From contig RFFP01000033.1 in assembly GCA_003696155.1 (NCBI GenBank), positions 1 to 53,196 of the forward strand: 53,196 bases of DNA, read 5' to 3'. Of the stretch, positions 9,506 to 46,470 are shown in pieces. The stretch is from Acidobacteriota bacterium (lineage in GTDB: Bacteria; Aquificota; Aquificia; Aquificales; Aquificaceae). Both the position numbers and the translations under genes were made by a program. How positions within the stretch are numbered: the stretch's first letter is position 1; each line of letters begins with the position of its first letter. The notes beneath the pieces are model-generated. The model had not been told where the DNA came from, did no database searches, and worked only from the letters and a program-made list of their open reading frames with translations.

Positions 9506-9828
9506 ATTATCAGGTTGTATAGCACAAACCTCGCAAGAACATACAAGCTCGCAACATGAAAGTCCTTAGTCTTATCCCTGTCCCCAAATCTGCTTTTGAC
9601 TATACCTATTACTTGCTCCACTTTATACCTGTTTCTTTTGTATATGTCTCTCTTCTCCTCATAATTCCCCTTAGCCCAAAGCCTTCCGCTGTTTCTCACT
9701 CTCGTGTGTATTGTATCCATCACAGGAATTATCCCACTCATACCTTTCTCCTTTACCAGTTAAATCTGTAGTGTATGGTTGTAAGGTCTGGGACTTTTGG
9801 GAATATGTCTTTTAGTCTTTCTTTGCCT
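9500..9828 (-). mobile_element. IS remnant, copy A: internally deleted DDE transposase
   Basis: Minus-strand remnant of an IS5/IS4-like DDE transposase. Read 5' to 3' it has a piece ending PDLTTIHYRFNW then a stop, followed in another frame by KEKGMSGIIPV, IYKRNRYKVEQV and IVKSRFGD, the last being the usual C-terminal region of such transposases. The central part with the catalytic acidic residues is missing. About 215 bp (9609-9824) are near-identical to copy B at 11158-11372, including the same internal deletion. Copy A keeps the C-terminal end and lacks the N-terminal end. Confidence 0.7.
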
Positions 9829-9960: not shown

Positions 9961-10362
9961 GTGAATATGGTGGAGTTGATGAGGACAGGGGGATATTCAG
10001 GTCAGGGGGACTCTGATAGAATTCTTGGACTGGATAGAAACATAGTCTTCTTTGATGCTTTTCCCGAAGATTTTAACCCCGAAAAGCATGTGGTCATAGA
10101 CATAATGAACCCCCATTATACACCCTACTACCAGAAAAACGAACTTCCTGGCGACTGGCATAATCTCACACCCATTCACTTCCTTGCGGTCAGTGAAGGC
10201 GTTAGCTTTAGAGTATGCCTTTCTTACACGCCTGTAAACCCTGTGGAAAGTAAGCCAGATTTGGTAGAAATTGCAAAGGAGCTTTTAAAGGTAGGTCTTG
10301 AAAAATTTGGAGTTGGCGGAAAGAAGAGAAAAGGCTATGGTTGGTTTGAGGTTATAGAATGA
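9961..10362 (+). pseudogene. cmr6: Truncated Cmr6 (type III-B RAMP)
   Basis: 133 residues matching the C-terminal half of Cmr6: VFFDAFP (about 29-35), DIMNPHYTPYY (about 47-57), DWHNLTPIHFLAV (about 65-77) and the RAMP glycine-rich loop GVGGKKRKGYGWF (117-129). Full Cmr6 is roughly 250-300 residues, so the N-terminal RRM half is missing; upstream DNA is IS stub. A GTG at 9961 could start a short product, but it should not fold as a complete RAMP. It overlaps cas6 by 4 bp (ATGA), showing both came from one III-B operon. Confidence 0.75.
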
Positions 10363-11120
10363 GGTTTTGCGTGGTTTTATCTTCAGAAAAGGAAAGGGCA
10401 AAAATCTCTCTAGACTACCGAAGGCGTTTCATATCCTTCTTGAAGATAGTTCTGAGAGCGGAATATTTTAAAGAAAAAGCCCCAAGACCATATACCTTTG
10501 CGGTTTATTTTGGTAAAAACAAACCTATAAAGGAAGGCTTTATAAATGAGGTTGAAAGGATAACTTTCAGGTTTTCCAGTGGAGACCCTGTGGTTTTGAT
10601 GGAGTTCTATAACGGAATTTTAAGGCTAAAAAAGGAAAAATATCTGCACGAGATAGGAGACAGAAAGTTTTTGATAATTGGCATAAAGCAGGAAGAAGAA
10701 AAAGAGCCTAAAGGATACTTCAAAACCCTTTCTCCTGTAGTGGTGGACAGGCTCGGCTACGAAAAGGCGGAAAATCCCAAAGAGCGCTATGCTGTCCCGT
10801 GGGAGGAAGACTTTTTGCCTTCCTTGCTCTCCTGTGTTGCTTTAAGGTTTAAAGAGATAAAAGGCTACGAGCCTAAGTTTAAAAGCGTAGACTTTAAGCC
10901 TATTCAGGTAAAAGAGCAGGTGATAAAACACTACGGTGGTTATCTCAGGGGCTTTGTAGGGGAGTTTTATCTGTGGTTTAACGACCCAGAGGTTATGAAG
11001 TTTGTCTATCAGTATGGACTTGGTGTGCGCACAGGTCAAGGTTTTGGATATTTGCAAGTGGTATCTGAGCCTGTTGAAAAAAAATCGCAAAAGCCTATCC
11101 ATCAAGCTTCTAAAAGATAG
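10359..11120 (+). CDS. cas6: CRISPR endoribonuclease Cas6
   Basis: Cleaves CRISPR precursor RNA within repeats. The 253-residue protein ends with the Cas6 glycine-rich loop YGLGVRTGQGFGYLQV (219-234). The N-terminal RRM includes RPYTFAVYF (about 43-51). No histidine occurs in the first 96 residues, where the general-acid histidine of many Cas6 proteins sits, so catalysis may rely on other residues. It is translationally coupled to the cmr6 remnant and separated from the type I-B operon by an IS remnant. It probably serves the array at 17930, being the only complete cas6 in view. Confidence 0.85.
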   Translation: MRFCVVLSSEKERAKISLDYRRRFISFLKIVLRAEYFKEKAPRPYTFAVYFGKNKPIKEGFINEVERITFRFSSGDPVVLMEFYNGILRLKKEKYLHEIGDRKFLIIGIKQEEEKEPKGYFKTLSPVVVDRLGYEKAENPKERYAVPWEEDFLPSLLSCVALRFKEIKGYEPKFKSVDFKPIQVKEQVIKHYGGYLRGFVGEFYLWFNDPEVMKFVYQYGLGVRTGQGFGYLQVVSEPVEKKSQKPIHQASKR

Positions 11121-11157
11121 CCCAAACAAAAAGGCATAAAAACTAAATAAAATCCTC

Positions 11158-11579
11158 TTACTTGCTCCACTTTATACCTGTTTCTTTTGTATATGTCTCT
11201 CTTCTCCTCATAATTCCCCTTAGCCCAAAGCCTTCCGCTGTCTCTCACTCTCGTGTGTATTGTATCCCTCACAGGAATTATCCCACTCATACCTTTCTCC
11301 TTTACCAGTTAAATCTGTAGTGTATGGTTGTAAGTCTGGGACTTTTGGGAATATGTCTTTTGGTCTTTCTTCTAAGTTTATAAGGGACGGTCTTTCTAAG
11401 GTTTTTATTAGCAGTGCTGCTATTATGATGTGGTCTTTGTAGACTTTTGGTCTTCCTCTTGTCCTTGAGGTAGGTTTAAGGCTTTTGCATATTTGTTTGC
11501 TTTTTGCTATGATAAGTTTTATTAGGTGTTTCTTGTGTTTTGCTTTCATTGTTTTACCTCTTTTTTCTTTTTTTAACAT
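11158..11579 (-). mobile_element. IS remnant, copy B: internally deleted DDE transposase
   Basis: Minus-strand remnant keeping the transposase N-terminus (MLKKEKRGKTM..., then GRPKVYKDHIIIAALLIKTL) and the same join to KEKGMSGIIPV and NRYKVEQV as copy A. It is cut at its C-terminal side next to the cas6 stop. Relative to copy A it has a one-base loss (GACTT for GACCTT) and a few substitutions over about 215 bp. Copy A supplies the C-terminal end and copy B the N-terminal end, in the same orientation, with cmr6'-cas6 in between. Confidence 0.72.
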
Positions 11580-14905: not shown

Positions 14906-17081
14906 TGGCACAAGTATAAGAAAGCATACGGACAGACTGCTCGAGAACCTGAAAGAGTTAAAAAACCTTTATGGGGAACAAATAGAGAAAGCTATACCTG
15001 AGGAAGAGCGAGAGTTGTTTTGGAAGATTTTGGAGCTTGCCTGTGAATATCACGATTATGGCAAAATTCATTGCAAGTTTCAAGAAAAAGTAGGTAATTC
15101 AAACTGTAAATGTAGTCAACAACTCCAAGAAGTAAGGCACAATCTTATATCTCCAGCTTTTGTAAAAGCGGATGATGAGCTTGTGGAAAACATTATTGCA
15201 TTGGTTGTATTACACCATCACAGATATAAAAAAGATAAAGAGGAAATCAAAAAGCTTGAGGAGGTTCTAAAGGAAGAGTTTGGAAAAGAGCTTTGTTATA
15301 GGTTTCTTCTTAAAGAAGACAACGACTATGCAATGCTTGAGAAAATTGAAGAATGCTATGGCAAAGATTATACAAAGCTTTACACTCTTATGAAAGGCTT
15401 TCTTCTGCGGATTGACCATGCAAGTAGCAGTAAGGGGGGTGTTGTAGAAAAACCACTTATAACGGACTACCAAAAAAGGGTTGAAGACTACCTAAAAACG
15501 CAAAAAAACTCTTCCCTTAATTGCCTTCAAGAGTGGGTGCTTGAGAACTTGGAAGACAATCTTTTAGTAATTGCAAGCACAGGCATGGGTAAAACGGAGG
15601 CAGGCTTTCTGTTTCTCAAAGGCAAAGGCTTTTTTATACTACCTATAAGGACTTCTGCAAACGGTATATACCTAAGGGCTTGTGATGTTTTTAATGAAGA
15701 AGATTGTGGACTTTTACACTCCTCTTCTCTTAATTTTCTTCTTTTTGAAAAAGACGGTGCGAAGGATCACTTGAACAACAACTTGGATGTGGGTATACTT
15801 GACCACATTGCGGAAAGCAGGAACTTTGCAAAACCTATAATAGTCTGCACTCCAGACCAGCTCTTTCCCTTTGTTTTTAGGTTTTACGGTTTTGAAAAGT
15901 ATTTTTCTATGTTTTCCTATGCAAGGGTTGTGTTGGACGAAATCCAGCTCTATGAACCCCACACCCTTGGCTTTTTGGTGTTTGCCCTAAAGTTAATACA
16001 CGAAGAGCTTGGTGGTAAAGTAATGGTAATGACCGCAACCCTTCCTGAGTTTGTAAGAGAAGACCTTAACTTTCTACGAGAATCTGATCCTTTTCTTTTT
16101 GAAAAACCAAGGCACCATATTAAGCTTGAAAAAAGATCCATACTTGACGAAGGTGCGCTAAAAACAATGATTGACAAAGCTCGTGAAAATAAAGTCCTTG
16201 TAATCTGCAACACGGTAGAAAGGGCGATAGAGTTGTATAAAAAACTTAAAGAGAAGAACGAAAGCTTAGACATAGGGCTCCTGCATTCAAGGTTTATGTT
16301 AAAAGATAGGATAGAAAAAGAGAAGGAAATAAAAAGCTTCTTTGACTCCGAAGAACGCTCGGGCATTTGGATAACAACTCAGCTTGCGGAAGTTTCTTTG
16401 GACCTTGATGCGGACTTGCTCTTTACCGAACTTTCACCAGCGGACAGCCTTTTCCAAAGATTTGGAAGAGTAAACAGAAAGGGTAGAAAGAATACAGACA
16501 AGCCTAATGCTTTTATCTTTACAGAAGATTGCTCGGGTGTTGGTTCTGTCTATAGAAAGGCATTATTTGAGCTAACAAAAGAGAAGTTAAAGGATGGGAC
16601 TTTGGGGGAGGAAGACAAAGTGAGCATCGTGAAGGAAATATATTCAAAAGACACTCTTAGCAAGAGGGATGATAAATACTTAAAAGAATACGAAGAAGCA
16701 AAAGACTATCTTAAAAGTTTGTGGGAAATGTCCGTATATATCAAGGAAGGTTTTAGCAAAAAAGAAGCTCAAAAACTCTTTAGGGATATTGATAATGTTT
16801 TAGTAATTCCAGAGGAATTTAGGCAGTATGTTGAAAAGCTTTTGGAAAAAATGGAAGCAGAAAACAAAAAAAATGGAGAAAGCGAAAAATATTTTAGGGA
16901 TAGGGAGGAGATATACAAATACTCCATAAGTGTGCCTAAGTATTGGTTAAACAAGAAGGTAAAGGTAAAGGGAGCTGTAGGAAATTTAAAGCCTAAAATT
17001 TTCTACATAGAAGGATGCTCGTATGACGAGCACCTTGGACTTTACTGTGCGCAAGAAGAAAGTCTTGGTGAGTTTATATGA
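14856..17081 (+). CDS. cas3: CRISPR helicase-nuclease Cas3
   Basis: Nuclease-helicase that degrades DNA bound by Cascade. An N-terminal HD nuclease domain has H24, H66-D67 (YHDYGK), H95 (RHNLIS) and HHH 120-122. The helicase has Walker A STGMGKT (241-247), DEIQ (361-364), TATLP (393-397) and QRFGRVNR (534-541). All expected motifs are present in 741 residues, so it should be active. The start ATG 14856 has GGAGGA just upstream inside cas8. It overlaps cas4' by 4 bp. Confidence 0.95.
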   Translation: MEESLKEKLEKLWAKSNGTSIRKHTDRLLENLKELKNLYGEQIEKAIPEEERELFWKILELACEYHDYGKIHCKFQEKVGNSNCKCSQQLQEVRHNLISPAFVKADDELVENIIALVVLHHHRYKKDKEEIKKLEEVLKEEFGKELCYRFLLKEDNDYAMLEKIEECYGKDYTKLYTLMKGFLLRIDHASSSKGGVVEKPLITDYQKRVEDYLKTQKNSSLNCLQEWVLENLEDNLLVIASTGMGKTEAGFLFLKGKGFFILPIRTSANGIYLRACDVFNEEDCGLLHSSSLNFLLFEKDGAKDHLNNNLDVGILDHIAESRNFAKPIIVCTPDQLFPFVFRFYGFEKYFSMFSYARVVLDEIQLYEPHTLGFLVFALKLIHEELGGKVMVMTATLPEFVREDLNFLRESDPFLFEKPRHHIKLEKRSILDEGALKTMIDKARENKVLVICNTVERAIELYKKLKEKNESLDIGLLHSRFMLKDRIEKEKEIKSFFDSEERSGIWITTQLAEVSLDLDADLLFTELSPADSLFQRFGRVNRKGRKNTDKPNAFIFTEDCSGVGSVYRKALFELTKEKLKDGTLGEEDKVSIVKEIYSKDTLSKRDDKYLKEYEEAKDYLKSLWEMSVYIKEGFSKKEAQKLFRDIDNVLVIPEEFRQYVEKLLEKMEAENKKNGESEKYFRDREEIYKYSISVPKYWLNKKVKVKGAVGNLKPKIFYIEGCSYDEHLGLYCAQEESLGEFI

Positions 17082-17260
17082 AAGAGGAGCTGAGGCTTCT
17101 CAAGTACAGAGGCACTCAAGTTGCCTACTTTGTAGTTTGCAAAAGAAAGCTTTGGTTGTTTACCAAAGGCTTAGGTTTTGAGCATCTTTCTGAAAGGGTT
17201 GCCTTGGGAAAATTCCTTGATGAGGTAAGTTTTCAAAAGGAAGAAAAAGATATGGTATAA
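17078..17260 (+). pseudogene. cas4: Truncated Cas4
   Basis: The first ~50 residues match the N-terminus of Cas4: YRGTQVAYFVVCKRKLWLFTKGLG, given in parts as GTQVAYFVVCKRKLWLF and FEHLSERVALGK, including the first cluster cysteine. The normal protein is about 165-200 residues with RecB-like catalytic residues and three further C-terminal cysteines; here the frame stops after VSFQKEEKDMV. The DNA beyond does not resume Cas4 in any frame I could follow. cas1 and cas2, which usually follow, are absent. Confidence 0.8.
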
Positions 17261-17528
17261 AAAGCCTCCTATGGCATAAGGGAAAGATACACCACACTCA
17301 ATTAGCAGATTGTATTGGATGGGGATAGAAAACATAAGGGCTTTGTGTTGGCTCTTCAGATAAAGGTAAAGGTGTGTTTTAGGAGTTTAGGATTTAAATT
17401 TTGAATCGGAAATTAAATTAAGGTGTATAATATAATCATAGTGGTAGAAAAGCTTTGTAAAGCTTGGGAGTCTGTTTGGCTCCCTGTCATCTTGGCAACT
17501 GAATAGGTGAGTGTTTTCGGGTTAGGCG
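17261..17528. other. Spacer between cas4' and RHH gene, with hairpins
   Basis: No convincing gene. TATAAT occurs at 17426-17431 with TTGAAT 19 bp upstream, a weak promoter candidate. Downstream lie two AAGCTT boxes and the hairpin GGGAG/CTCCC (around 17466-17484), not followed by a T-run. The segment could encode a small structured RNA, or be the end of a lost IS element that removed cas4-cas1-cas2. Confidence 0.3.
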
Positions 17529-17929: not shown

Positions 17930-18609
17930 GTTTCTAATCAACCGGGTGGAGTTGAAAGCTCTGTATATGCTGGATATATCTGCGGGTGTGAGCTGTTTCT
18001 AATCAACCGGGTGGAGTTGAAAGTTTTTAGGTGAGCATTTTGCGGTGATGCCTACAAAAGTTTCTAATCAACCGGGTGGAGTTGAAAGTTTCTTGAGGAT
18101 ATATTATATGCAAGTCAAAAAAGGTTTCTAATCAACCGGGTGGAGTTGAAAGATAATCAAGTCTTGCAAGCTCCTCTTCAGTAAGGATGTTTCTAATCAA
18201 CCGGGTGGAGTTGAAAGTTTCTTGGTAGTCAAAGAGTAAAAGCCTTATCTCATTGTTTCTAATCAACCGGGTGGAGTTGAAAGACGGATAAATCGGATAA
18301 AAAGGCCAGCAAAGTACAAGTTTCTAATCAACCGGGTGGAGTTGAAAGTGAAATACTTACCGTTAAATCCTATACTTATGGGCTCGTTTCTAATCAACCG
18401 GGTGGAGTTGAAAGTCCATTGAAGTATCTTCTGAAAGTCTTCGTAGTGCGTTTCTAATCAACCGGGTGGAGTTGAAAGTTTAAAGCTCCCTACACATATA
18501 ACTATAAACGAAACTGTTTCTAATCAACCGGGTGGAGTTGAAAGTGAAAGGTTTGACACGCAGAATGTCTGGCTTAAAATGTTTCTAATCAACCGGGTGG
18601 AGTTGAAAG
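17930..18609 (+). CRISPR. CRISPR array, 11 repeats and 10 spacers
   Basis: Eleven 29-bp repeats start at 17930, 17995, 18060, 18124, 18189, 18255, 18320, 18386, 18450, 18516 and 18581. They begin GTTTCTAATCAACCGGG and end TGGAGTTGAAAG, and I see no mismatch among them. Spacers are 35-37 bp. The 3' end GTTGAAAG fits the usual crRNA handle and gives rightward polarity. A short CAAC/GTTG stem can form. The last repeat is not degenerate, unlike typical trailer ends, and is followed within 20 bp by a truncated tnpB, so the array was probably cut there. Confidence 0.98.
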
Positions 18610-18627: not shown

Positions 18628-19521
18628 GTGATAGCTTGGGCTGAAGTGTCAAAAGATGGTAATCTCATAAGCTATGGGCAAATTTCTATGCACGAGCTTT
18701 TGGAAAAGAAAAGAGCAGAGCAAAGGAAGGACTACCTACACAAGCTTGCACATGAGATAACAAACTTGGCAAAGGAGAAAAGTAAAGCAATAGCGATAGA
18801 GAAGCTAAAGAAGGTCAGCAAAGGACAAAGGGGAGATGGAAGGGCGAAGCTAAGGAAAAGACTTCACAACTGGGTCTATAAAAACTTGCTTGAAAAGATA
18901 AAGACAACTGCAAGGAGAAAGGGGATAGAGGTTATAGAAGTAAACCCAGCATACACGAGCGTAATTGGGGCTTTAAAGTATTGTCCACAATATCTGATAG
19001 ACAAAGATACAGCAGGAGCTTATGTGATAGGAAGGAGGGCATTAGGCTTTAAAGAAGACATACCAGAAAACTACTTAAAACTGCTAAGCGACAAAGACTA
19101 CATGCTTTATTCTATTGCAAGGCTTGAAGAGAGAAAGCATGAGCTAAAGATAAAACTAAAGCAAGAGGCAAACATATACAAAAGGAAAGCCATAAAGCAA
19201 GAGTTAAGCAAACTAAACAAGGACATAGAGCTTATATATAAACATCTACAAAGCCTTGAGAGTGAGCCAAGTGCTCAAAAACAGGGGAGCCTATGGAAGG
19301 AACCTGTGAGGGGCAGGTCTTTTGACCTGCAAAAAGCTTGGCTAGCTGTCAAGGTAGCCCTCACCTTCCCTATTCTTGAAAAGTCCTTTGTAAGGGATTT
19401 TTCTCCCTTGAGGTCAATTTTGGTTTCAGGGGATTGGGATAGGAGGACAAGTAAGGCGAGACCTCTTTCAGAGTGGGTGGTCGCTCAGGGTGTTGTTATT
19501 CAATGCTCTGGGAATTTTTAA
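18628..19521 (+). pseudogene. tnpB: 5'-truncated TnpB-related protein (IS200/IS605 group)
   Basis: Open from a TAG at 18625-18627, with GTG as a possible start. It begins IAWAEVSKDGNLISYG, the segment just after the RuvC-I Asp of TnpB, so the N-terminal ~150-200 residues and that Asp are missing. It continues with AIEKLKK, VNPAYTSVIGALKY (about 110-123) and DKDTAGAYVIGRRALGF (about 131-147), typical of the zinc-ribbon-less TnpB-related group. The truncation point lies 18 bp after the last CRISPR repeat. Its 3' end carries a sequence also found in the cas7 leader. Confidence 0.72.
19454..19500 (+). other. Likely right end / guide-RNA scaffold region of the TnpB element
   Basis: The 3' end of the tnpB relic has GCGA (19455-19458) pairing with TCGC (19480-19483) around TTTCAGAGTGG, then GGTGTTGTTATTCAA. 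In IS200/IS605 elements the right end and the guide RNA scaffold overlap the tnpB 3' end, so this is where they should be. The exact IS boundary is not determined. Confidence 0.4.
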
Positions 19522-30127: not shown

Positions 30128-30710
30128 GGAAGAGCACCCCTTTGCCCTTGCCTATAGGTTGGTAGAGGAGGGAAAGCTTGACCCTTGGGACGTGGACATA
30201 TCTGCCCTAGCGAGGGCATACCTTGAAGAAATAAAGAGGAGTGAGCTCCTTGACCTAAGGGTGCCCGCAAGGGCTGTACTTGCTGCCTCCTTTCTACTCA
30301 AAAAACAGGTGGATATCATCTTTCCGACGCCTAAGGTTAAAAAGGAGAGAAAGAAGCTTAGTCTTAAGGAAATAGTGGAAGAGTTCGAAAGCCAAGAGCA
30401 TGAGGTAAAGCAGGAGGTTATAGAAAAGATAGAGAAAGTAAAGAGGGTTCTTAAAAGTGTGCATGTAAGCAGAGAAAGGAGACCTCAAAGGAGAAGACGC
30501 TTTCCCATACACGTGTCAAAGTTTGAGGATGCTCTAAAAGAGCTAAAGGAGCTTCTAAAAGAAAAGGGTATGACTTTCTCTCTTTGGGAGCTGGTGCTTA
30601 ACAAAAATCCAGTTCCTTACCTCATGGCACTGCTCGTTTTGTATCAGGAAGGGCTCGTGGAGCTCTATCAAGATAAACCCTGTGGAGAGTTAAGAGTGGA
30701 GGTGCTGTAA
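30114..30710 (+). CDS. scpA: Segregation and condensation protein A
   Basis: Kleisin-type subunit of the SMC-ScpAB condensin. The N-terminal kleisin motif is PFALAYRLVEEGKLDPWDVDI (residues 8-28; LDPWDVDI is the conserved core), with AASFLLKKQV near 62 and the C-terminal winged-helix segment MTFSLWELV. The 198-residue protein is shorter than the usual 230-270 because the middle linker is compact and basic (RRPQRRRR). It overlaps accD by 14 bp and hisIE by 1 bp (TAATG). Confidence 0.85.
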   Translation: MWRFEEEHPFALAYRLVEEGKLDPWDVDISALARAYLEEIKRSELLDLRVPARAVLAASFLLKKQVDIIFPTPKVKKERKKLSLKEIVEEFESQEHEVKQEVIEKIEKVKRVLKSVHVSRERRPQRRRRFPIHVSKFEDALKELKELLKEKGMTFSLWELVLNKNPVPYLMALLVLYQEGLVELYQDKPCGELRVEVL

Positions 30711-31339
30711 TGCTACGGCTTAGATACAATGAGGATGGTCTCATACCGGTCATAGCTCAAGATTGGCGCACTGGTGAGATAAGGATGTTTGCATGGGCAA
30801 ATGAAGAAGCCATAAGAAAGACCATAGAAACTGGCTACGCTCACTACTATTCAAGGTCAAGAGGGGAGATATGGAAAAAGGGTGAAACCTCTGGAGAGCT
30901 CCAGAGGGTCCTTGAGGTAAGGGTGGACTGCGATGAGGATGCTCTGCTATATATAGTAATGCAAGAGGAAAACAGAGCATGCCACACGGGAAGGAGAAAC
31001 TGCTTCTTTAGAGACTTAGAGGGGCAGGAGGCAGAGAGGGTCCTGCCCTTTGAAACCTTGCAGAGGCTCCAAGAGACTATAGAGGAAAGGCTCAGAGAGA
31101 AACCAGAAGGTTCTTACACTGTCAAACTCTACATGGAGGGTGAAGACCGCATATTACAGAAGTTCGGCGAGGAAGCCATAGAGGCCCTCCTTGCCATGAA
31201 AAAAGACAACAGAGAAGAGATTAAGGCCGAAGTGTCCGACATGCTTTACCATCTTCTTCTCATGCTAACCCTTAGAGGCTTGGGTGTGGAGGAGGTCCTT
31301 TCCGAGCTTGCACGGAGGCTGGTCAAACCTCGTAGATGA
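30710..31339 (+). CDS. hisIE: Phosphoribosyl-AMP cyclohydrolase / phosphoribosyl-ATP pyrophosphatase
   Basis: Bifunctional histidine enzyme catalysing steps 2 and 3. The HisI part has FAWANEEAI, WKKGETSG, DCDEDALL and CHTGRRNCF with metal-binding Cys and His. The HisE part (from about residue 118) has YTVKLYMEGEDRILQKFGEEAIEAL in pieces such as LQKFGEEAIEAL, then DMLYHLLLML. The 209-residue length is normal for the fusion. It overlaps the convergent TPR gene by 17 bp. Confidence 0.95.
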   Translation: MLRLRYNEDGLIPVIAQDWRTGEIRMFAWANEEAIRKTIETGYAHYYSRSRGEIWKKGETSGELQRVLEVRVDCDEDALLYIVMQEENRACHTGRRNCFFRDLEGQEAERVLPFETLQRLQETIEERLREKPEGSYTVKLYMEGEDRILQKFGEEAIEALLAMKKDNREEIKAEVSDMLYHLLLMLTLRGLGVEEVLSELARRLVKPRR

Positions 31340-31562
31340 TGTCAAGGAGCTCCTTTGCCTTCTCTGGAGATAGCTCCTTTAGCCTCTTGTATACCTCCCT
31401 AGCCTTGGAGGTGTTGCCCATCCTTGAATAGGCTACACCCAGTTTAAAAAGAAGCTCCGCATCGTCTGGTCTGCTCTCCAGCTCCCTATGCACATCTTCT
31501 ATAAACTTCTCAAGGAGTCCTTCGCCCATTTTACTGAACAAGCCCCTGTAATTCTTATCCAT
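31323..31562 (-). CDS. Small TPR protein
   Basis: A 79-residue protein with about one and a half tetratricopeptide repeats: DAELLFKLGVAYSRMGNTSKAREVY (residues about 34-58, core LFKLGVAYSRMGN) followed by ELSPEKAKELL. It is likely a small protein-protein interaction adaptor; no specific partner is indicated. It follows the hypothetical gene at 31568 on the same strand after 5 bp and overlaps the convergent hisIE. Confidence 0.7.
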   Translation of the reverse strand: MDKNYRGLFSKMGEGLLEKFIEDVHRELESRPDDAELLFKLGVAYSRMGNTSKAREVYKRLKELSPEKAKELLDIIYEV

Positions 31563-31567
31563 GGCCC

Positions 31568-32071
31568 TTAGACTCCGTAAAATCTGTATTTAAGTTCCTT
31601 AATTCTTTTTAGGTTTTCCAGCAGGACATCCTCTATGGTTGAGCTATAAGAGACCACCACTAAGTCAAATCCAAAACCTCCTTCCTCAAGTATGCGTCTT
31701 GATTCTATCAGGAACTCTTTCAGCACGTGGTCCAGCTCTATTTCAAAGGGGGCACCTAAGAAGTGATGGCTTATGCCAAGGAAGCTCCCAGGCTTTACCC
31801 TTACCATTAGCCTTATGGGATTGAGGCTTTCTATGAGCCTCTCCCTTTCTGTCGCATACTGAAGACCAAACATTAGCATGGCATCGGTTATAAGATGGTA
31901 GGAAGATAGGGAGACGAACTGCCTAAAACCTGTTTCTTTAAAGTCAAGCTTCAGATTGTCCTTACATGTCTCCACCCAATGGGGATGGGGATTTTCAACA
32001 AGCCAGAATATCTTTTCTGGATAGAAATTGTCTCTCTCTTGCACTCCCCATATCATGGTGGCGAGGGGCAT
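31568..32071 (-). CDS. Uncharacterised 167-residue protein
   Basis: I do not recognise this family. It is a soluble protein without signal peptide or membrane helix, with ENPHPHWVETC near 27-37 and SYSSTIEDVLLENLKR near the C-terminus. The ATG has no Shine-Dalgarno but lies seven bases after a -10-like TATATT on the minus strand (32079-32084), so it may be leaderless. It is divergent from glcD and followed by the TPR gene, suggesting a two-gene operon. Confidence 0.65.
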   Translation of the reverse strand: MPLATMIWGVQERDNFYPEKIFWLVENPHPHWVETCKDNLKLDFKETGFRQFVSLSSYHLITDAMLMFGLQYATERERLIESLNPIRLMVRVKPGSFLGISHHFLGAPFEIELDHVLKEFLIESRRILEEGGFGFDLVVVSYSSTIEDVLLENLKRIKELKYRFYGV

Positions 32072-42922: not shown

Positions 42923-43903
42923 TATAGGCAGATATACCCTAAAGGTGCTTCCCCTTCCTTCGGAACTTTCCACATCAACCCTTCCTCCGTGGGATAGTGC
43001 TATATGTTTGGCTATAGAAAGGCCAAGCCCTGTACCACCCAGCTCTTTGGAGCGTGATGGGTCCACCCTGTAAAAGCGGTCAAAGATGAAGGGTATATGC
43101 TCCTTGGGTATGCCTATACCCGTATCCTCCACCTCTATGACCGCATGTCCCTCCTGCATGAAAGAGCCTACCCTGACCTTTCCACCCTTCCTGTTGTACT
43201 TTATACCGTTGTCAACAAGATTCTTCAACAGCAAAAAGAGCTTGTCCTTGTCGCCGCTAAGCATAAAACCCTCTTCCACCAAGTTCTCAAGGCTTACATC
43301 CCTCATCTGAGCTTCTTCCGAAAGAAAGTCAAAGACATCCTCTACGAGAGATCTCAGGCTAAAGGTTTCCCTTTTAAGCCTTTCCTCTCCAGATTCGAGC
43401 TTGGTTATTATTAGGAGGTCTTCGACCAAATTTCTCATGTCCTCTACACGCCTGATGGCTCTCTCTAAAAAGGTCTTCTTTTCTTCCCTGTCCTCCTCCT
43501 CATAGAGGGTTTCTAGGATGCTTTTGAGTACTGCGATGGGGGTTTTAAGCTCGTGGGATACGTTGGCAACAAACTCCCTCTTTGACCTTTCATAGCGCTT
43601 GAGCTCCGTTATATCCGTGCATCTTACCACGACCATATCGCTACCCACAAAGGTGTAGAGGGAATAATCCCTATGGCCATGGTAAAAATTGCACACCTTA
43701 GCCTTTCCGTTGGAAAAGGTTTCCGCAAGACAGCTCACCACGCTCAAGTTACCTATACACTCGTAGTAGGGTCTGTTTTCGTAATTCTCCTTTATAAGGC
43801 CCCTTCTTATGAGAAAGTCGTTGCAAAAGAGCACAAGTCCCTGTCTGTCTATCAACAGATAACCCTCCTCCACCTGGTTGAGAAACTCCTTAAGAAAGCT
43901 CAT
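42917..43903 (-). CDS. PhoR-like sensor histidine kinase
   Basis: A 328-residue kinase with an N-terminal PAS-like domain (about 5-100), H-box FVANVSHELKTPIAVL with His117, N-box NLVDNGIKYN, G1 DTGIGIP, F-box IFDRFYRVD and G2 GTGLGLSIAKHI. It has no membrane helix, so it may be a soluble sensor or bind a membrane partner. PhoR-like kinases usually pair with PhoB; no response regulator is adjacent. It overlaps purK by 14 bp. A PsiE-like gene lies 5 kb away, which would fit phosphate control but does not show it. Confidence 0.87.
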   Translation of the reverse strand: MSFLKEFLNQVEEGYLLIDRQGLVLFCNDFLIRRGLIKENYENRPYYECIGNLSVVSCLAETFSNGKAKVCNFYHGHRDYSLYTFVGSDMVVVRCTDITELKRYERSKREFVANVSHELKTPIAVLKSILETLYEEEDREEKKTFLERAIRRVEDMRNLVEDLLIITKLESGEERLKRETFSLRSLVEDVFDFLSEEAQMRDVSLENLVEEGFMLSGDKDKLFLLLKNLVDNGIKYNRKGGKVRVGSFMQEGHAVIEVEDTGIGIPKEHIPFIFDRFYRVDPSRSKELGGTGLGLSIAKHIALSHGGRVDVESSEGRGSTFRVYLPIL

Positions 43904-44972
43904 GATGGTAAATCACTTCTAGGAGCCTTTCTATCTTCTCCTCAACTTCTTGTTCTGTGCTTGCGACCACATTCACGTGCCCTACCTTTCTTCTTGGCTT
44001 TTTATCCTTGCCATACCAATATAGCTTGGCACCTTCAACGGAGAGAAGAGCCTGCAAATCAAGCTCTTCAAGGGAGAGCCCTAAGATGTTGACCATACCG
44101 GAAGGGCTCTTTAGCTTGGTAGAGCCCAAGGGCAGACCACATACAGCCCTAAGAAGGTTTTCAAACTGGGATGTATAAGACCCGTCAAGGCTGTAGTGTC
44201 CCGTATTGTGGGGTCTTGGTGCCATCTCGTTTATAAGAACTTTACCATCCCATGTGTAGAAGAACTCCACCGCCAAAAGACCAACAATGCTAAGCTCTTC
44301 CATAAGGTAGAGGACTATCTGATTTGCCTCATCTATGGAAAAGCCCCTGGTGAAGTTGTACAGAAGTATGCCCTTGTCATGGCGGTTTATGGTGAGAGGA
44401 TAGAGTTTAGTATTGCCCTTCTTGTCCCTTACACCGATTACCGAAAACTCAAAGCTAAAGTCAACCAACCTCTCCACAACAAACTTCTCTCCTTCCTTGT
44501 GGTTTTTGAATACCTGATGGAGGTCTTCCAGACTGTCTATCCTGTACTGACCCCTACCATCGTAGCCAAGCCTTTCCGCCTTTAAGATACAAGGGAAACC
44601 AAAGTCTTTTACCGTTGGAGATAAACCGCTGTAGTCCGCAACTGTAAACTCAGGTATGGGAAGCCCTTTCCTTCTGTAAAACTCCTTCTCCTCTATCCTG
44701 CTTCTCTTTACCTCTAGTATGCTAAGGGATGGTGTGGTAAGGTCATAAAGCTCCTCAAGGAGCTCCTCATGAATGTGTTCAAACTCGTAGGTTATAAGGT
44801 CGCACCATCTTATAAAATCTCTCACCCGCTCTGGGGGAAACCATAGGTCTGCTACCCTGCTGGCGGGAGCCCCTGGATCCTTATCAAGAACTGCAAACTC
44901 AAGACCCAGCCTCCTGCCCTCAAGGATGGTCATCCATCCCAGCTGACCACCGCCCAGTATACCAACCCGCAT
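43890..44972 (-). CDS. purK: N5-CAIR synthetase
   Basis: ATP-grasp enzyme converting AIR and bicarbonate to N5-carboxy-AIR in purine synthesis. It begins RVGILGGGQLGWM and has LKAERLGYDGRGQY (about 129-142), VERLVDFSFEFSVI and EMAPRPHNTGHY (about 255-266). The 360-residue length is normal. On the minus strand TATAAT (44979-44984) ends six bases before the ATG with no Shine-Dalgarno, and this -10 lies on the stop region of the cas6 relic. purE is not adjacent. Confidence 0.95.
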   Translation of the reverse strand: MRVGILGGGQLGWMTILEGRRLGLEFAVLDKDPGAPASRVADLWFPPERVRDFIRWCDLITYEFEHIHEELLEELYDLTTPSLSILEVKRSRIEEKEFYRRKGLPIPEFTVADYSGLSPTVKDFGFPCILKAERLGYDGRGQYRIDSLEDLHQVFKNHKEGEKFVVERLVDFSFEFSVIGVRDKKGNTKLYPLTINRHDKGILLYNFTRGFSIDEANQIVLYLMEELSIVGLLAVEFFYTWDGKVLINEMAPRPHNTGHYSLDGSYTSQFENLLRAVCGLPLGSTKLKSPSGMVNILGLSLEELDLQALLSVEGAKLYWYGKDKKPRRKVGHVNVVASTEQEVEEKIERLLEVIYHHELS

Positions 44973-44978
44973 AAGAAA

Positions 44979-44984
44979 ATTATA
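44979..44984 (-). promoter_or_regulatory. -10 element of purK in the tail of the cas6 relic
   Basis: TATAAT on the minus strand, six bases before the purK ATG. It overlaps the relic's last Leu and stop codons (TTATAA). No -35 consensus at 17 bp. Confidence 0.5.
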
Positions 44985-45156
44985 AGACCTCTAAGTATCC
45001 AAAGCCCTGACCCGTCCTGTAGCCAAGCCCAAACTGGTAGACAAACTTAAGGAGCCGTGGGTTGTCCGTCTCTATCTTAAAGGCACCAACAAAGCCCCTA
45101 AAGCTCTCAGCCTGAAACTTGAAGAAAGAAAACTTCGGGTTGTAGCCCTTAAGTTG
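44980..45156 (-). pseudogene. cas6: C-terminal relic of a second cas6
   Basis: 58 open codons on the minus strand without a start. They read LKGYNPKF, SFRGFVGAF, LLKFVYQFGLGYRTGQGFGY and LEV before the stop. The intact Cas6 at 10359 has IKGYEPKF, YLRGFVGEF, VMKFVYQYGLGVRTGQGFGY and LQV in the same order and spacing. The frame is cut by TAG (45157-45159) inside a CRISPR-repeat-like sequence. It is the end of another cas6, different enough from the intact gene not to be a recent copy. purK starts 7 bp downstream. Confidence 0.85.
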
Positions 45157-45180
45157 CTAATCTACCGTGTGGAGCTGAAG
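45153..45180 (+). repeat. Solitary degenerate CRISPR repeat
   Basis: 28 bases beginning GTTGCTAATCTACCG and ending TGTGGAGCTGAAG. Aligned to the 29-bp array repeat there are 24 identities, four substitutions and one missing A. Orientation is the same as in the main array. It directly touches the cas6 relic, and the nfeD promoter follows about 22 bp later. No second repeat is seen at 60-70 bp on either side. Confidence 0.8.
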
Positions 45181-45201
45181 GAGTTGAGTTAAAAGAAGTA
45201 G

Positions 45202-45207
45202 TATACT
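45202..45207 (+). promoter_or_regulatory. -10 element of nfeD, leaderless spacing
   Basis: TATACT ends six bases before ATG 45214; there is no Shine-Dalgarno. It lies 22 bases after the solitary CRISPR repeat. Confidence 0.45.
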
Positions 45208-45213
45208 ATCCTT

Positions 45214-46470
45214 ATGAAACTTGTTATTTTGCTACTACTCCTCTTTGGTTTTCCCTTTGCAAAGGTGTATGTTTCCCAATGGCAAGATGCAGTTACTCCT
45301 GTAATGGTAGACCATATAAAAAGAAGTCTTCAGGAGGCTGAAAAGGGAGGGGCAACCCTTTTTCTCCTTGAGCTTAACACGCCCGGGGGTTTAGAAAGTT
45401 CCATGAGGGAGGTGGTTCAAGAGTTTCAGAGGGCACATATGCCCATTGTGGTCTTTGTTTACCCGTCTGGTGGTAGGGCTGCCTCCGCTGGTGCCATAAT
45501 AACCATATCGGCAGATATAGCGGTCATGGCACCGGGAACAAACATGGGTGCGGCACATCCTGTGCAGATGGGTGGTGAGAGGATGGACGAAGCAATGAAG
45601 GAGAAGGTCCTTCAGGATATGCTCGCCTTTGTGCGTAGTATAGCAAGAGAAAAGGGGAGAAATGTGGAAGTTGTAGAGCGCATGGTTAAAGAAAGCATAT
45701 CTCTTACACCAGAGGAGGCGCTAAAGGAAAAGGTTATAGACTTCATAGCAGTGGACAGAGCAGACCTCCTGAAAAAACTAAACGGCAGGGTGGTAAATAA
45801 ACAGGGAAGGGAGATAACCATAAAAACAGAGGGTGTGGCGGTTGTAGAAATGGGTAAGAGTTTGAGGGAGGAGTTTCTAAGACTTATAACAAACCCCACC
45901 GTAGCCTACATGCTCTTACTTATAGGTTTTTATGGCATATTCTTTGAGCTTTACAACCCAGGCTCCATAATACCCGGTGCAGTCGGTGTTATCAGCCTGC
46001 TTCTCGGTCTTTATGGGCTCGGTATAATAGGCATAAACTGGCTTGGGCTACTGCTCATACTTGCAGGGATTTTGCTTTTAGTTCTTGAGCTTATAACGCC
46101 AACCTTCGGAGGGCTTGCAATAGCAGGTGCGGTTGCCCTTGCTATAGGTTCCCTAATACTCATAAGCCCAGACTCACCTTACGGGGATATACCCTTAAGC
46201 GTCATAGCCACTATGGTGGGTCTTACGGTGGCCTTTTTCCTATTCGCTGGGAGATTAGGTCTCGCAGCGCAAAAAAGGAAAAAGATGCTCGGAACTGAGG
46301 AGCTGATAGGAGAGCGAGGAGAAGCATACACAGACTTTGTGGGTGGTAAAGGAAAGGTTTTCATACATGGTGAGATATGGAACGCGATCGGCAAGGAGGA
46401 TATAAAAAGGGGAGATATGGTTGTGGTGGAAGAGGTCAGCGGAATGACATTAAAGGTGAAGAAACTATAA
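45214..46470 (+). CDS. nfeD: NfeD membrane serine protease (ClpP class)
   Basis: 418 residues: signal peptide (about 1-16), a ClpP-like protease domain with the nucleophile S91 in GRAASAGA and a likely Lys near 131, several membrane helices (about 230-345), and a C-terminal OB-fold NfeD domain (about 360-418). The archaeal homologue PH1510 cleaves stomatin; a stomatin gene would be the expected partner but none is adjacent. It is the full-length (NfeD1b-type) form. Confidence 0.9.
   Translation: MKLVILLLLLFGFPFAKVYVSQWQDAVTPVMVDHIKRSLQEAEKGGATLFLLELNTPGGLESSMREVVQEFQRAHMPIVVFVYPSGGRAASAGAIITISADIAVMAPGTNMGAAHPVQMGGERMDEAMKEKVLQDMLAFVRSIAREKGRNVEVVERMVKESISLTPEEALKEKVIDFIAVDRADLLKKLNGRVVNKQGREITIKTEGVAVVEMGKSLREEFLRLITNPTVAYMLLLIGFYGIFFELYNPGSIIPGAVGVISLLLGLYGLGIIGINWLGLLLILAGILLLVLELITPTFGGLAIAGAVALAIGSLILISPDSPYGDIPLSVIATMVGLTVAFFLFAGRLGLAAQKRKKMLGTEELIGERGEAYTDFVGGKGKVFIHGEIWNAIGKEDIKRGDMVVVEEVSGMTLKVKKL

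Follow-up and report, generated by a model that had tools for sequence, protein, structure and literature searches.

Orphan and degenerated CRISPR arrays have been reviewed (PMC8616872), and RNA anti-CRISPRs (Racrs) are known to sit in viruses, prophages and plasmids, often close behind a promoter and at a distance from cas genes (PMC10651486). The CreA antitoxins of CreTA retain the bases for Cas6 processing and are bound to the toxin RNA (PMC8501985). In the Aquificaceae, a type I-B locus (Cst1/Cas8b1, Cst2/Cas7, Cas5t, Cas3, Cas4, Cas1, Cas2 and Cas6) was found complete in one relative, designated G010.

We analysed a window of 53,196 nucleotides (contig RFFP01000033.1) from a hot-spring bacterium of the family Aquificaceae, in which a solitary CRISPR repeat lies between a fragment of cas6 and the nfeD gene. 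Its likeness to the Aquificaceae type I-B locus extends to the repeat (27 of 29 positions), the cas6 gene itself, the place at the side of purK and the relative orientations, the difference being that the window appears to have lost everything from the cas6 tail to the terminal repeat. As in the orphan arrays read as degeneration (PMC8616872), the repeat is without a cognate cas operon, but here it is a single one, with no spacer, and it is physically joined to the cas6 fragment, so that its origin can be traced. It shares with the Racrs (PMC10651486) the form of one intergenic repeat-like unit; however, it is on no recognised mobile element, has no promoter before it and adjoins a cas remnant. 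CreA (PMC8501985) is likewise a degenerate repeat outside an array and near a cas gene, whereas the orphan described here has an altered handle, a nearly intact repeat body and no identified toxin RNA, spacer analogue or second repeat. We propose, with a probability of about 0.88, that the orphan repeat and the cas6 tail form a scar left by the deletion of a type I-B CRISPR-Cas locus. The features on which the comparison is based are the following:

10359-11120, plus strand: intact cas6 of the main locus, ~50% identical to the Cas6 of the genus
17930-18609, plus strand: the window's own array, 11 identical GTTTCTAATCAACCGGGTGGAGTTGAAAG repeats of divergent type, with a conserved leader upstream
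30710-31339, plus strand: hisIE, the ancestral upstream neighbour of nfeD and the other side of the rearrangement
43890-44972, minus strand: purK (PF02222, PurK_C; synteny with locus L154 of G010)
44986-45150, minus strand: 3' tail of cas6, ~55 codons and a stop (TIGR01877, PF01881; alignment)
45151-45152, no strand: putative deletion junction between the cas6 tail and the repeat, where ~8 kb stands in G010
45153-45181, plus strand: solitary CRISPR repeat GTTGCTAATCTACCGTGTGGAGCTGAAGG, 27/29 to the genus repeat
45182-45213, no strand: junction between the repeat and nfeD, with TATACT at 45202-45207, six bases before the nfeD ATG; nfeD upstream regions were compared
45214-46470, plus strand: nfeD (PF24961, PF25145, PF01957)

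The orphan repeat was identical to the repeat of the window's own array at 24 of 29 positions and in the same orientation, a match that the earlier note had judged to be far beyond chance. This was confirmed when 40 first-order Markov windows with the dinucleotide make-up of the real window were simulated: their closest match to either repeat had 8-12 mismatches, and never fewer than 8, as against the 5 (own-array repeat) and 2 (genus repeat) of the orphan, which excluded a chance match. The location given in that note was right, although the repeat covers 29 positions and not 28, ending at 45181. When 40 relatives were searched, the genus array repeat GTTGCTAATCTACCGTGTGGAGTTGAAAC, or its variant ending in AAAG, was found in the sister genomes G003, G004, G007, G009 and G010, and the orphan agreed with it over its full length as an Aquificaceae type I-B repeat, with differences at positions 23 and 28 (position 29 itself is C/G variable in the genus). 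The better agreement with the genus repeat (27/29) than with the local one (24/29) indicates that the orphan is a nearly intact genus-type repeat and not a copy from the window's array. Its description as a degenerate copy of the array repeat was therefore imprecise, the repeat being of another array lineage, and descent from the window's own array was ruled out.

Nucleotides 1-21 were identical in the orphan and the genus repeat, and all the differences were confined to the last 8 nt, which form the handle. The handle (GCTGAAG) had been thought to be nearly preserved, but it proved to be the least preserved part, GCTGAAGG in the orphan agreeing with GTTGAAAG of the own array at 6 of 8 positions. 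Terminal array repeats of relatives, for instance GTTGCTAATCTACCGTGTGGAAGTTTCTC and GTTGCTAATGTACCGTGTGGAATCTAAAT, also vary mainly in nt 22-29; this shared pattern and the restriction of the differences to the handle make the orphan look like a leader-distal terminal repeat. It stands as a single repeat with no spacer, and no second match at ≤9 mismatches was found outside the main array.

A partial second copy of the repeat 3' end (GAGTTGAA-like) was seen at 45182-45195 of the window, within ~0-8 nt of the orphan, and similar copies occur at L182:240-253, after the array ends of L184 and L197 and after the single-repeat stubs L021 and L022. Such partial copies behind terminal or single repeats are perhaps collapsed last spacers. 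The repeat hairpin was discarded as evidence, the folds of the own, genus and orphan repeats being weak and no better than those of shuffled sequences, and of the RNA families searched for in the window only tRNAs passed.

To the left of the repeat, on the minus strand, the peptide encoded by the cas6 3' end (KGYNPKFSFFKFQAESFRGFVGAFKIETDNPRLLKFVYQFGLGYRTGQGFGYLEVL, followed by a stop) showed Cas6 homology (TIGR01877, E=1.6e-7; PF01881, E=3.9e-9) and reached 64% to the intact Cas6 of the genus. In the alignment the tail was ~12 codons shorter than intact homologues across the KHYGG stretch, and a relic of only ~55 codons is too short to point to one exact cas6 lineage. The homology stopped at the lysine codon of KGY (45148-45150), so the claim that the repeat starts where Cas6 homology ends is accurate to within 2 bp; the cas6 frame before this codon meets a TAG inside the repeat. 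An open frame on the plus strand, antisense to the tail, had no Pfam match and was rejected as a gene. The positional anchor is purK, which lies directly downstream of cas6 both in G010 and in the window. A TATAAT hexamer spans the stop codon of cas6 and leaves six bases to the ATG of purK; most relatives, whether or not they have cas6 there, show a similar AT-rich box at the 5' side of purK. Judging from these sequences, the cas6 tail probably persists as the carrier of the purK promoter region, and the left end of the locus probably survived because that region sits in it.

The intact locus of G010 (L154) has purK and cas6 pointing one way and, in the opposite direction, cas7, cas5, cas8, cas3, cas4, cas1, a 97-aa ORF at the position of cas2, and an array whose 14 repeats are of the genus type; the contig stops shortly after it. 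The genes at 34.5-45.0 kb of the window, including purK, were colinear with L154. At the junction, G010 contains the rest of cas6, cas7-cas5-cas8-cas3-cas4-cas1-cas2, the leader and the array, whereas in the window only the cas6 tail at one end and a single repeat at the other remain, oriented relative to each other as in G010 and with nothing between them. The cas6 fragment is thus at the orthologous place and the repeat is of the type of the G010 array, as in a relic of a type I-B locus. In another relative, G013, a region elsewhere in the genome holds a cas6 that is intact, a piece of a decayed cas7 with stops in it, a leader that can still be recognised and one repeat, GTTGCTAATCCACCGTGTGAAGTTGAAAC; this scar is an independent case of the same kind, which indicates that deletion from a cas gene to the array, leaving one repeat, took place at least twice in the genus. 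The intact orthologous locus and the parallel scar together give strong support to the suggestion, made in the earlier note, of a dead locus. G012 bears a shorter cas6-like tail (SKQGFGYLEV) directly before purK, followed by a 370-aa ORF with CxxCH haem motifs and then, ~1.2 kb away, by a full I-B locus. In a 1,551,335-base genome of another genus of the family (G016, C1, L209:661-998) the last repeat of an array, a degenerate one, likewise stands immediately upstream of purK, and the 5' side of purK looks like a recurrent CRISPR site.

According to the deletion model, an ancestor with the layout seen in G010 (purK and cas6 on one strand; cas7-cas5-cas8-cas3-cas4-cas1-cas2, leader and array divergent) would have undergone one or more deletions that fused the cas6 3' end to the last array repeat, with loss of the intervening DNA. 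The right end would also have become a chromosomal rearrangement breakpoint, by which nfeD was brought beside the scar in the order now observed, and the repeat, left without leader, spacer or cognate adaptation genes, is most likely inactive. As a fossil, the orphan repeat belongs to a known kind and is well explained. It offers a clear case of a lone CRISPR repeat traced to an intact ancestor locus, and G013 adds a second, independent scar of this kind from the same genus. The case also carries a warning: where a single repeat adjoins a piece of a cas gene, comparison with relatives should come first, ahead of any proposal of a crRNA-like or anti-CRISPR role.

In the window the conserved block accD-scpA-hisIE-nfeD-ppx is interrupted, 31339 being the last position of hisIE and 45214 the first of nfeD, and the right end of the intervening segment consists of purK, the cas6 tail and the repeat. 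In all of the relatives with a readable junction (11/11) hisIE and nfeD were adjacent, and none of these junctions carried the repeat (best match 10-13 mismatches). Since the pair is split in the window, the scar also marks the rearrangement breakpoint, providing an example of a CRISPR locus at such a site. CRISPR-linked inversions in Thermotogales are a precedent, and a search of the literature on them yielded nothing usable. At the left edge of the segment separating hisIE from nfeD (31339-31568 of the window) no remnant of a repeat or leader was seen.

Searches of the whole genome gave one weak 15-bit match for Cas1, in contig C25, at what reads in translation as an SPFH/HflK-like ORF, and otherwise none; for Cas2 there was no match. 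As the genome is a 37-contig assembly, the case for the absence of cas1 and cas2, though strong, falls short of certainty. With neither detectable, the known route of growth is closed to the orphan stub. The cas6 at 10359-11120 was the only full-length Cas6 match found in the genome. Three further single-repeat stubs, all intergenic, were found in this genome (G000): L021:2028-2056 (C32:69727-69755, minus strand), L022:2042-2070 (C27:49241-49269, minus strand) and L023:2014-2042 (C14:16313-16341, plus strand). Each one had the leader motif TCTTGCCAACTGAATAGGGC 58-201 nt upstream, and they are apparently arrays shrunk to a leader remnant and one repeat, making this an example of a genome without detectable cas1 and cas2 whose other arrays have been reduced to such stubs. 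The leader motif was also present with no detected repeat nearby at C14:26556-26593 and C32:118992-119036 (L180 and L181), where arrays have perhaps been lost entirely.

The full order purK-cas6-cas operon-array-nfeD was found in no genome, and the G010 contig stops just past the array; the repeat could thus stem from a separate array across the rearrangement. It would then have come from another small array or stub near nfeD or hisIE, purK and the cas6 tail having been brought to it by the rearrangement, with no single deletion from cas6 to the array. The other intergenic stubs and the coincidence of the scar with a synteny breakpoint speak for such an origin, which we nonetheless consider unlikely: the relatives' readable hisIE-nfeD junctions are free of the repeat (0/11), the three stubs keep the leader motif that the orphan lacks, and the repeat points the same way, with respect to purK and cas6, as the repeats of the intact locus in G010. 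These same junctions argue that the orphan is not an nfeD element. The presence of the same element upstream of nfeD in genomes with different CRISPR repeats had been named beforehand as the observation that would make it an nfeD element, and the repeat was found in 0 of 12 other genus nfeD loci, the range of 10-13 mismatches applying to 11 of them. A regulatory element linked to nfeD, or a short plus-strand ORF resembling a repeat by chance, has a next to negligible probability, because the match is far beyond chance, no counterpart precedes nfeD in the 11 members of the genus whose upstream region could be read, and the frame antisense to cas6 lacks a Pfam match, even though only 32 bp separate the repeat from the nfeD ATG and that frame stays open through the repeat.

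The deletion scar being our preferred reading, the remaining alternatives concern a possible function of the repeat. Neither the leader motif nor a leader alignment was found before it, and a consensus scan of 44950-45300 showed no sigma-70-like promoter on the plus strand. With one repeat, no spacers and no leader, it does not have the make-up of a functional array, and the mini-CRISPR or crRNA-like source envisaged in the earlier note was not borne out, the more so as the deviations are concentrated in the handle. The repeat family is the same as that of the array that looks functional, the genome still has an intact cas6, and CreA antitoxins rely on one or two degenerate repeats close to cas genes (PMC8501985), all of which would suit a crRNA-like or CreA-like guide that is transcribed and cut by Cas6 8 nt before the repeat end, the downstream sequence acting as spacer analogue. 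We regard this guide as highly improbable: the repeat is single, and so bounds no spacer analogue; it has no leader and no sigma-70-like promoter on the plus strand; its handle is the diverged part, whereas CreA repeats keep the nucleotides for Cas6 processing; the gap between cas6 and cas7 in G010 (~50-80 nt), and likewise in G012, is too small for a creTA module; and a guide from the downstream sequence would match its own locus only. Racrs are solitary intergenic repeats matching the host repeat (PMC10651486), but an RNA anti-CRISPR, a decoy binding Cas6 and Cas7, is extremely unlikely in the case of the orphan, which has housekeeping genes on both sides, adjoins a cas6 fragment directly, lacks an adjacent forward promoter in the sigma-70 consensus scan and resembles the repeat of the resident system less than that of the lost one. 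Its flanking genes are purK and nfeD, with no phage gene seen nearby, and the exact orphan/genus pattern was absent from viral contigs, which also led us to reject a viral origin. A crRNA-like, CreA-like or RNA-anti-CRISPR role is thus not supported. An RNA with the orphan repeat in it might be cut by the Cas6 that survives in the main locus, but nothing suggests that such an RNA is made; it could be guessed that the TATACT before nfeD uses the repeat 3' end as its -35 region. That the scar has been newly put to use, either through outside transcription and Cas6 cleavage into an RNA that affects the resident system or with the repeat 3' end as a piece of the nfeD promoter, seems very unlikely.

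Some additional observations were made at the main locus of the window, whose array is preceded by its leader motif, 440 nt upstream of repeat one. After cas3, at 17070-17400, the start of a cas4 gene (69-74% to intact cas4) is cut short and gives way to degenerate sequence, and no cas1 or cas2 was seen between this broken cas4 and the array. A 181-bp direct repeat (98%), located at 9605-9785 and 11154-11334, flanks a truncated cmr6 and the intact cas6; it is transposase-like, with a DDE_Tnp_1 match in the first copy. Finally, a C-terminal fragment of TnpB fused to unrelated sequence (18628-19521) begins 18 bp past the last repeat of the array.
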